From the NCBI RefSeq assembly GCF_003258295.1, contig NZ_QKYN01000017.1, positions 1-64,000 on the forward strand: a stretch of DNA of 64,000 bases, read 5' to 3'. Under the pieces are notes generated by a model. The model had not been told where the DNA came from. It was given only the letters and a program-made list of their open reading frames with translations, and did not search any database. This stretch comes from Streptacidiphilus pinicola. GTDB taxonomy: Bacteria; Actinomycetota; Actinomycetes; Streptomycetales; Streptomycetaceae. Positions 32,663 to 35,611 of this stretch are shown one piece after another; the stretch's first letter is position 1; every line of letters begins with the position of its first letter. The position numbers and the translations under genes are program-made.

Positions 32663-33391
32663 CTGTCAGCACGCGACGTCAGGGCAACGTCGGTGCTGTG
32701 GCAACGGCACCGGGGGAGGGCGCCGTCGGTCATGTGGTTCCGGTCGGCTTTCGGGTCACTGCTGAGCAAGGGGCGCGCGGTGGGTGTGTGCGCCCGTCAT
32801 CCTCAGCTTGAGGCCGTCTCGCTACCGAGTGTCACCGAATGCTGTCGGTGACCAGCCTCCTACCGCTTCAGGGACCGGCCTGCTGCCGGGCGCCCCCGAT
32901 GCCTGTGGTCCACCCCCTCACCAGCATCGTGGGGGATATGGCCTACTCGGCGCAACCAGTTCGACAGACTTCGGCCTTGTCGATTTTCGTCACGCTCCGC
33001 AAGGATCGACTCATGGTGAGAGACCGGTAGCGCGGAGTCCGCTGTGCGCCGGGTGGCGTTGCGCCACCCCGGGCTGGCGGGGACGGCGACACGGGAAGGG
33101 ACAGGCGAGATCGGGGGTGGCCGACGCCGGGCGTCCCCCTCGCCGGCCACCCCTTCTCCGCAGTCGCAACCGGGCCGCTGTCCCCTGCTGTCCGGTCACA
33201 GCGTGGCCGCGAGGTCCCACGGCGCGCGCCACAGCACACGCCTCATCGCGTCCACGGACTGGGTCACTCCCACGCGTGGTCCTGCCTGCCGCACGACCGC
33301 CCCGGAAGGAGGCTGGTGCTTGTCCCTGGCGGGGACAACCACCCCGTGCGGTCATGGGGGACAACGATTCTCCTTGCGGCGGGTCACGCGC
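32663..33391. other. long intergenic region without a clear gene
   Basis: About 730 bp. Several short frames exist (for example 32839-33030, 63 codons; its inner start at 32938 gives 31 codons beginning MAYSAQPV), but none has recognisable homology or convincing codon use, and GC skew by position is weaker than in neighbours. The right end has a TTGTCCC/GGGACAA hairpin (33320-33338) and a second GGGGACAAC (33357-33365), likely regulatory for the attenuator-controlled gene that follows. Confidence 0.5.
33320..33365. promoter_or_regulatory. repeated GGGGACAAC elements
   Basis: TTGTCCC (33320-33326) pairs with GGGACAA (33332-33338); GGGGACAAC occurs at 33331-33339 and again at 33357-33365, 26 bp apart, just upstream of the -10 box at 33392. 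An operator role is inferred. Confidence 0.4.
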
Positions 33392-33397
33392 TAGGAT
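33392..33397 (+). promoter_or_regulatory. -10 box of the chorismate mutase leader
   Basis: TAGGAT, with no clear -35. Transcription would begin near 33404, which is the ATG of the leader peptide, so the leader would be leaderless. Confidence 0.45.
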
Positions 33398-33403
33398 CGG
33401 CGC

Positions 33404-33472
33404 ATGTTCCAGATGGCGTACATCTTTAGCTATGGCACCGGAGGCTCCGGTCGCCATGGTGATGCCGTCTGA
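33404..33472 (+). CDS. Phe/Tyr leader peptide of an attenuator
   Basis: 22-codon frame ATG 33404 to TGA 33470, peptide MFQMAYIFSYG then TGGSGRHGDAV. Four of the first ten residues are Phe or Tyr (Phe2, Tyr6, Phe8, Tyr10), and two of their codons are TTT and TAT, which are very rare in this genome. A strong hairpin (33432-33457) starts in the Tyr10 codon, and an intrinsic terminator (33491-33528) lies between this frame and chorismate mutase, whose product feeds both Phe and Tyr. This is the classical layout of transcription attenuation. It is inference from sequence; expression has not been shown. Confidence 0.75.
   Translation: MFQMAYIFSYGTGGSGRHGDAV
33432..33457 (+). promoter_or_regulatory. 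attenuator 1:2 (pause) hairpin
   Basis: ATGGC-ACCGGA-GGC-TCCGGT-C-GCCAT: 11 paired bases with a single bulged C, beginning in the last Tyr codon of the leader peptide. A ribosome stalled at Phe8 or Tyr10 would melt it. Confidence 0.7.
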
Positions 33473-33490
33473 ACTGACGCAGACCCTGCA

Positions 33491-33528
33491 GGCGCCCCGG
33501 GCCGATGGCCCAGGGCGTCTTTGTTTTT
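33491..33528 (+). terminator. attenuator terminator with T tract
   Basis: Stem 33491-33503 with 33507-33519 (one C.A mismatch, one G.T pair, loop GAT), directly followed by TCTTTGTTTTT. An intrinsic terminator with a real T run is rare in this GC-rich genome. CCCTG (33484-33488) plus ACG (33477-33479) can pair with its right arm as an antiterminator. Confidence 0.8.
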
Positions 33529-33575
33529 GCCGCCGGGGCCCTCGGAGCCGGAGCCGGACCCCGGAGGACCCAGAG

Positions 33576-33923
33576 ATGAACACCGTCACCAGCCCCGTGA
33601 ATCACGCCCCGAGCCGCATCGCGCCCAAGGCCGGGGAGACAGCGGAACCCCTGACAGCGGAGCCTCTGACGAAGGAGGCCGCCGAGGCCGTCATCGCCGA
33701 GGCGCGCGGACGGATCGACGCGCTGGACGCCGAGATCCTGGACGCGGTGCGCCGCCGGATCGCCACCTCGGCCGAGGTGCAGGCGGCGCGGATCGCCGTG
33801 GGCGGGCCCCGGCTCTCGCTGACCCGGGAGATGGAGATCCTCGACCGCTACCGCGCGCAGCTCGGCGGTCCGGGCACCGAGGTCGCGATGCTGCTGCTGG
33901 AGCTGTGCCGCGGGCGGGTGTGA
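33576..33923 (+). CDS. chorismate mutase (AroQ class)
   Basis: 115-residue helical chorismate mutase converting chorismate to prephenate, the branch to Phe and Tyr. The first long helix holds EARGRIDALDAEILDAVRRR and continues to TSAEVQAARIA; REMEILDRYRAQLG forms the second. The start ATG 33576 has GGAGG at 33563-33567. The N-terminal 30 residues are variable and contain a small repeat (AEPLTAEPLTKE). The gene follows an apparent Phe/Tyr attenuator and precedes guaA by 90 bp; a TAGAAT box at 33968-33973 could give guaA its own promoter. Confidence 0.92.
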   Translation: MNTVTSPVNHAPSRIAPKAGETAEPLTAEPLTKEAAEAVIAEARGRIDALDAEILDAVRRRIATSAEVQAARIAVGGPRLSLTREMEILDRYRAQLGGPGTEVAMLLLELCRGRV

Positions 33924-34013
33924 TCATCGCCGCCCTCGTCGTGGCAGGGGGTCGGCGGCTCGACCGTTAGAATGAGGGTCGACCCCCCATAGCAACCGCC
34001 GGAAGGCCGCACT

Positions 34014-35611
<1,598 letters not shown>

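Follow-up and report, generated by a model that had tools for sequence, protein, structure and literature searches.

A candidate ribosome-mediated attenuator with phenylalanine and tyrosine codons upstream of actinomycete chorismate mutase

The chorismate mutase leader region

The DNA analyzed here, a 64-kb stretch from Streptacidiphilus pinicola (hereafter the window), carries on its forward strand a gene for a monofunctional, AroQ-type chorismate mutase (CM; 33576–33923). The assignment comes from family profiles, with matches over cut-off to NF005894 (107.1 bits), TIGR01808 (60.4 bits) and PF01817; the first two are NCBIfam profiles for the chorismate mutase family of high-GC Gram-positives. 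Over the best segment, the protein is 93–94% identical to the CMs of S. neutrinimicus, S. anmyonensis and S. melanogenes. The gene starts at ATG 33576, preceded by a GGAGG Shine-Dalgarno sequence (33563–33567), and the start lies 48 nt after a T tract, exactly where a preliminary description of this region had placed it. A GMP synthase gene (GTG 34014) follows downstream of CM.

Upstream of CM on the same strand lies a leader peptide ORF of 22 codons (33404–33472), reading MFQMAYIFSYGTGGSGRHGDAV to its stop codon. Its ATG at 33404 sits 6 nt after the sequence TAGGAT (33392–33397), a predicted −10 box of the leader promoter, and by this spacing the ORF would be leaderless. Inspection by eye upstream of the −10 box found no convincing −35 box. 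The ORF contains the four aromatic codons attributed to it in the preliminary description: Phe2 (TTC), Tyr6 (TAC), Phe8 (TTT) and Tyr10 (TAT). The last two, separated by Ser9 (AGC), form the putative sensor at 33425–33433, and both are rare synonyms. In 31 long open frames of the window with high GC3, 7 of 325 Phe residues are encoded by TTT and 13 of 290 Tyr residues by TAT, with the caveat that choosing high-GC3 frames works against TTT. Five Pfam-supported window genes taken with no GC3 filter give 1 of 50 and 3 of 31, respectively.

The leader RNA is predicted to fold into an overlapping series of structures. Hairpin 1 (1:2; 33429–33460) starts beside the Tyr10 codon and has 14 predicted pairs with C33452 bulged; 11 of these run from inside the Tyr10 codon inward and correspond to the 11-bp hairpin noted earlier. 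A helix around the leader stop codon (33464–33489) forms part of the 2:3 structure, and a predicted antiterminator (2:3; 33447–33500) pairs 33447–33455 with 33491–33500. The last hairpin (3:4; 33490–33520) is a predicted intrinsic terminator, followed by the T tail TTGTTTTT at 33521–33528. The preliminary description was right about the terminator and its tail; its count of 12 pairs was not, as the stem has 13 pairs with one C–A mismatch. A simple consensus terminator scanner did not list the hairpin at 33490–33520; the mismatch probably put the stem outside what its rule accepts. The region from 33404 to 33580 folds to an energy below all 200 of its dinucleotide shuffles (z −4.2), and an Rfam search of 33000–34200 returned nothing at gathering score, the best hit having an E-value of 0.76 to an unrelated family.

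Conservation of the leader and its RNA

We assembled two sets of CM loci to follow the leader across actinomycetes. CM homologues were present in 327 of the 394 Streptomycetaceae genomes searched, and the near set comprised 101 CM loci from Streptomycetaceae and Glycomyces, including 39 usable fetched regions together with named GTDB contigs. Removing seven repeats of one assembly or species (L018–L021, L074, L080, L093) left 94. At class level, searching with a CM profile gave homologues in 169 of 394 genomes, some forty of them from Streptomycetaceae. The far set took 39 of 40 upstream regions, excluding L183 (165 bases, at a contig end); it consists of 36 loci outside Streptomycetaceae and three second CM copies inside that family.

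The Phe/Tyr leader is nearly universal in the near set. It precedes CM on the sense strand at 93 of 94 loci and on the antisense strand at none, and demanding a leaderless start changes the tally only to 92 versus 0. L072 is the sole near locus without a leader. Ninety-one rows entered the positional comparisons, namely the 94 loci minus L072 and minus L040 and L079, where the leader is present and lies outside the coordinate filter. A [TC]ANNNT box stands 6–7 nt before an in-frame start in 90 of these 91 rows, the window included (85 ATG, 5 GTG), and the remaining row, L120, has AATAAT there. The leaderless spacing on which the preliminary description had drawn is thus a conserved property of the locus.

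The leader extends well beyond this group. It occurs at 23 of 39 far loci (antisense, 0) and spans nine families (f3, f6, f84, f88, f91, f99, f102, f111, f113), none of them Streptomycetaceae, although Glycomyces of the near set may or may not be among the nine. By the −10 spacing rule, 20 of the 23 are leaderless. Sixteen of the 39 far CM loci have no F/Y leader, and these include five second CM copies (L203, L208, L209, L211, L212) and seven loci of family f3 (L196–L201, L207), where the absence could reflect loss or a shift of control to another gene. Three g19 loci of f3 carry FFYG leaders, unlike those seven, which belong to other genera. Different short leaderless ORFs, containing some F/Y, occur at L189 and L204 and were left uncounted.

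It is this conservation, rather than odds from shuffled sequence, that is decisive for the leader being real. On both strands of the window, exactly one ORF fits a leaderless rule (TANNNT, 5–8 nt, ATG or GTG, 9–45 codons), and it is the CM leader with its four F/Y codons. Mononucleotide shuffles produce 12.4 rule-fitting ORFs per window and 0.25 with four or more F/Y (5 in 20 shuffles).

A covariance model of the leader, R1, was tried as a distribution count and rejected. It matched 47 of 346 phylum genomes at an E-value of 0.01 and just 11 at 1e-13, these being ten Streptomycetaceae (source genome included) and G590. CM-anchored loci were used for distribution instead because weaker R1 matches often cover the terminator part alone. 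In the source genome, R1 finds one strong full-length copy (E 4.7e-22), followed by a match at 3.7e-4, which is partial, and one at 9.3e-4.

Both hairpins are retained in relatives, and the terminator covaries. From 84 rows with parsable ends, 47 non-redundant leaders were chosen, and all of them except L044 make up alignment A1; the A1 rows for the window, L005 and L006, all Streptacidiphilus, begin at the inner Met4. Across these 46 leaders, 94.8% of the cells of hairpin 1 and terminator together are paired, and 92.7% of those of hairpin 1. Changes on both sides of a pair occur at 6 of the 13 terminator pairs, a number found in 1 of 500 shuffles, and at none of the hairpin 1 pairs. Downstream of the stem, the 10-nt tails average 3.8 T over 88 rows, versus 12% T in the following 20 nt. 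The window's seven T are the highest of the 88 rows, and tails are short elsewhere: 16 rows have two T and one has none.

The stop-codon helix passes an alignment-free test of the same kind. A further near row set contained 90 of the 91 rows (68 unique), and the helix test used 66 segments, with L044 and L078 left out as mis-parsed. Helix halves fold more stably with the partner from the same leader than with a swapped one (−11.74 versus −10.25, s.d. 0.25), and the difference holds with one segment from each of 19 clusters (−12.87 versus −10.15, s.d. 0.57; 0 of 20000 permutations). As controls, reversed halves keep a smaller shift (z −1.8, 177 of 5000) and complemented halves keep none. Both the terminator and the stop-codon helix therefore show the covariation that the preliminary description had proposed looking for, and the Phe/Tyr codons and terminator it pointed to are kept in relatives.

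The fold of the predicted antiterminator recurs in relatives. When the RNA that a stalled ribosome would leave free is folded as it stands before terminator completion, four or more pairs are predicted between arm 2 and the terminator's 5' arm. This is so in 89 of the 91 near rows and in 14 of the 21 far leaders; the two near rows without this pairing, L042 and L044, are both mis-parsed. In the window, the pairs join 33447–33450 to 33497–33500 and 33452–33455 to 33491–33494. The preliminary description had named a different alternative, between 33477–33488 and 33511–33518; that complementarity exists, but it is not the one that recurs. The 2:3 fold excludes hairpin 1 and the terminator alike. 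Each of arms 2 and 3 also has a partner in those two hairpins, so their pairing with one another is not independent evidence. We scored pairing of the terminator 5' arm in 26 hand-picked near rows and 23 far leaders, of which 47 of 49 could be scored (L186 and L187 yielded no arm). The mean over these 47 was 0.593 against 0.582 in shuffles, which is no excess. Individually, 35 of the 47 exceed their own shuffles, and those below include the seven scored f88 leaders, in which the terminator arm is difficult to locate, together with three f84 leaders. In the window the terminator (−26.0 kcal/mol) is more stable than the predicted antiterminator (−21.7 kcal/mol), so switching would have to be kinetic.

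Conservation after the core follows the RNA and not the peptide. Among 34 unique leaders of the same length, codons +4, +7 and +9 after the core vary at positions 1 and 2, exchanging amino acids (T/I/N, S/A/T, C/R), while position 3 is fixed. A frozen third base under changing amino acids is the opposite of what selection on a peptide would leave. Moreover, L084, L089 and L110 retain the hairpin with the reading frame shifted. The peptide beyond F-T-Y-G is probably a by-product.

Rare codons in the leader core

In every one of the 91 near rows, the Phe of the core is encoded by TTT. Two codons further on stands TAT in 87 of the 91, the exceptions being four Glycomyces rows shifted by one repeat. 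All 23 far leaders have a TTT in the core; the far-leader pattern demanded Phe and Tyr and so guaranteed that both occur there, but it did not fix the choice of TTT. Rare U-ending UUU is accordingly kept in the leader core of at least ten actinomycete families by this comparison of sequences, and UAU in several. Upstream of the core in the near leaders, over twelve in-frame codons, Phe and Tyr are instead encoded by TTC or TAC in 126 of 127 cases, a count in which the codons of short leaders reach past the start.

Pairing at the base of hairpin 1 accounts in part for TAT. It does not account for TTT, which sits outside the hairpin. A stalled ribosome covers about 12 nt beyond the A-site codon. 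With that footprint, all fourteen bases of arm 1 would be masked by a ribosome stalled at Tyr10, and about nine of them by one stalled at Phe8. Waiting at TTT8 or TAT10 would thus hide the 5' arm of hairpin 1 largely or completely, which waiting at TAC6 would not do. Only TTT8 and TAT10 are both rare and fixed; Tyr6 is not. Because a stall would matter at TTT8 and TAT10 and not at Tyr6, the fixed rare codons coincide with the predicted switching positions.

A bolder proposal is that the sensor is codon-specific and reads the decoding of U-ending codons by G34/Q34 tRNAs, beyond the level of the amino acid alone. We consider this unlikely. If true, the switch would read tRNA charging plus wobble-base modification such as queuosine.

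A putative attenuator and its alternatives

The observations in the preliminary description are confirmed, and its interpretation as an attenuator is supported by the comparisons above. We consider it very likely that the leader region is a ribosome-mediated transcription attenuator of CM that senses Phe-tRNA and, probably, Tyr-tRNA. The leader, its codons, the −10 spacing, the hairpins and the T-rich tail are conserved, and the terminator and stop-codon helix covary. From these we infer the start site, leader translation, switching, sensing of both amino acids and a role for the rare codons, which would combine as follows. Transcription would begin on the leader ATG or close to it. Starting from the 5' end of the message, a ribosome would translate the leader. 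With charged tRNA-Phe and tRNA-Tyr in ample supply, the ribosome would reach the stop codon and cover arms 1 and 2, leaving the terminator at 33490–33520 to halt RNA polymerase at the T tail. If either charged tRNA were scarce, the ribosome would wait at UUU8 or UAU10, covering most or all of the hairpin 1 5' arm. The freed segment 33447–33455 could then bind 33491–33500, the 5' arm of the terminator, and polymerase would continue into the CM gene. CM commits chorismate to Phe and Tyr, which makes an OR-type sensor of both amino acids a reasonable design at this step.

Known attenuators supply close parallels. In the pheL-pheA attenuator of E. coli, the leader has a ribosome-binding site. Our candidate would share with it a Phe-rich leader peptide, ribosome-mediated attenuation and a chorismate mutase target. 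The E. coli target is a fused CM-prephenate dehydratase and the switch senses Phe, whereas the window encodes a monofunctional CM; unlike pheL, the window leader is leaderless by spacing and has both Phe and Tyr codons. Neshat et al. reportedly described in 2014 an aroR-aroF attenuator in Corynebacterium glutamicum. Like our candidate, aroR is an actinobacterial leader, with Phe-Tyr-Phe, in ribosome-mediated attenuation of an aromatic pathway gene, but its target is DAHP synthase rather than CM, and the two are compared here by description, not descent. Sections of PMC11802643 also tell the pheL precedent, and aroR before aroF, the nearest Phe/Tyr case, appears in the sampled parts of PMC11802643, PMC4046766 and PMC7356990.

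The architecture also resembles Streptomyces trpL and the leaders of Streptomyces lividans TK24, which, in the portions of PMC1262725 and PMC8079986 sampled, are short, mostly leaderless ORFs with hairpins before an amino acid gene. Those leaders serve Trp, Leu, Ile/Val, Ala, Thr or Met in the same portions, whereas the window leader is Phe/Tyr. The S. lividans reannotation tabulates, in the part sampled, eight leaders, none for Phe or Tyr (PMC8079986), and the sampled part of a 2005 comparative study gives Actinobacteria leaders for Trp, Cys and branched-chain amino acids and states that it saw none for Phe or Tyr (PMC1262725). Partial coverage of the open-access literature, including PMC1262725, PMC8079986, PMC4833913, PMC2965389, PMC13236596, PMC4633059, PMC11802643, PMC4046766 and PMC7356990, yielded no Phe/Tyr attenuator before an actinomycete CM. 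Unusual for attenuators are the breadth across actinomycete families and the fixed rare codon. According to the same 2005 study, as far as sampled, mutating candidate upstream regulatory codons of S. coelicolor ilvB was reportedly without effect, which counts against attenuation (PMC1262725).

Several alternatives bear weighing. Rather unlikely, but tenable, is the same attenuator sensing Phe only, with the Tyr codon fixed as the base of hairpin 1. TAT does lie within the stem, and in Glycomyces TAC is accompanied by GCCGTA in the 3' arm. The AroR peptide of C. glutamicum (Phe-Tyr-Phe) bears on both readings: one review, in its sampled part, has it answer to Phe and not Tyr (PMC11802643), whereas a sampled passage of PMC7356990 describes control by both. 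Against sensing of Phe only, a Tyr10 stall masks arm 1 more fully than a Phe8 stall. That the far leaders contain Tyr says nothing about Tyr sensing, because the search pattern demanded it. A different terminal step, in which the hairpin controls CM translation or Rho instead of an intrinsic terminator ends the RNA, seems unlikely to us. It would fit the short T tails of many relatives and the few intrinsic terminators in Actinobacteria reported in the sampled part of one survey (PMC2965389). Yet the window hairpin ends 42 nt before GGAGG, which is outside it, and the tails are T-rich relative to the following DNA behind a stem that covaries.

We give very little credence to a leader peptide that acts as an arrest peptide stalling the ribosome, or as a small protein: a C-terminal GxxPxGCHGRAA looks conserved in many Streptomyces-like leaders, but the frozen third positions and the shifted frames with hairpin retained speak against selection on the peptide. 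Coincidence, a random short ORF beside an ordinary terminator, has a negligible claim. Strong hairpins do arise easily in GC-rich DNA, and the consensus scanner lists no terminator here; this reading is already refuted by the occurrence of the leader at 93 of 94 loci in the near set and 23 of 39 in the far set, against none in the antisense control.

If the attenuator is real, it would constitute a control common to many actinomycete families at the step committing chorismate to Phe and Tyr, in families that include antibiotic producers drawing on aromatic precursors. It would also fill a gap in the S. lividans list, in whose sampled part a Phe/Tyr leader is absent (PMC8079986). Finally, a leader that encodes one amino acid by two synonymous codons in different places would allow a clean test of the reason for which rare codons are fixed in attenuators.

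Neighboring genes and sequences

In the source genome we searched up to 1.5 kb upstream of the Pfam matches for three further aromatic-pathway enzymes: prephenate dehydratase, prephenate dehydrogenase and class II DAHP synthase. We found no leaderless F/Y leader at these three, and no short leader ORF there has more than two F/Y/W. Class II DAHP synthase matches lie on four source-genome contigs (L214–L219; G000 C200, C89, C21, C203), and a Phe/Tyr leader was not seen at them.

Around the window locus itself, the CM frame is open for 379 codons (32784–33923) and crosses the leader region in a frame other than the leader's, so automatic annotation could set the CM start much too early. On the downstream side, a TAGAAT at 33968–33973 upstream of GMP synthase gives that gene a possible promoter of its own, 90 nt after chorismate mutase. 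Upstream of the leader promoter are a palindrome, TTGTCCC-TGGCG-GGGACAA (33320–33338), and a third half site, GGGGACAAC (33357–33365), possibly the operator of a DNA-binding regulator. The closest Streptacidiphilus relatives retain the palindrome with altered arms (e.g. L002) and have the stretch CAACGATTC in common.
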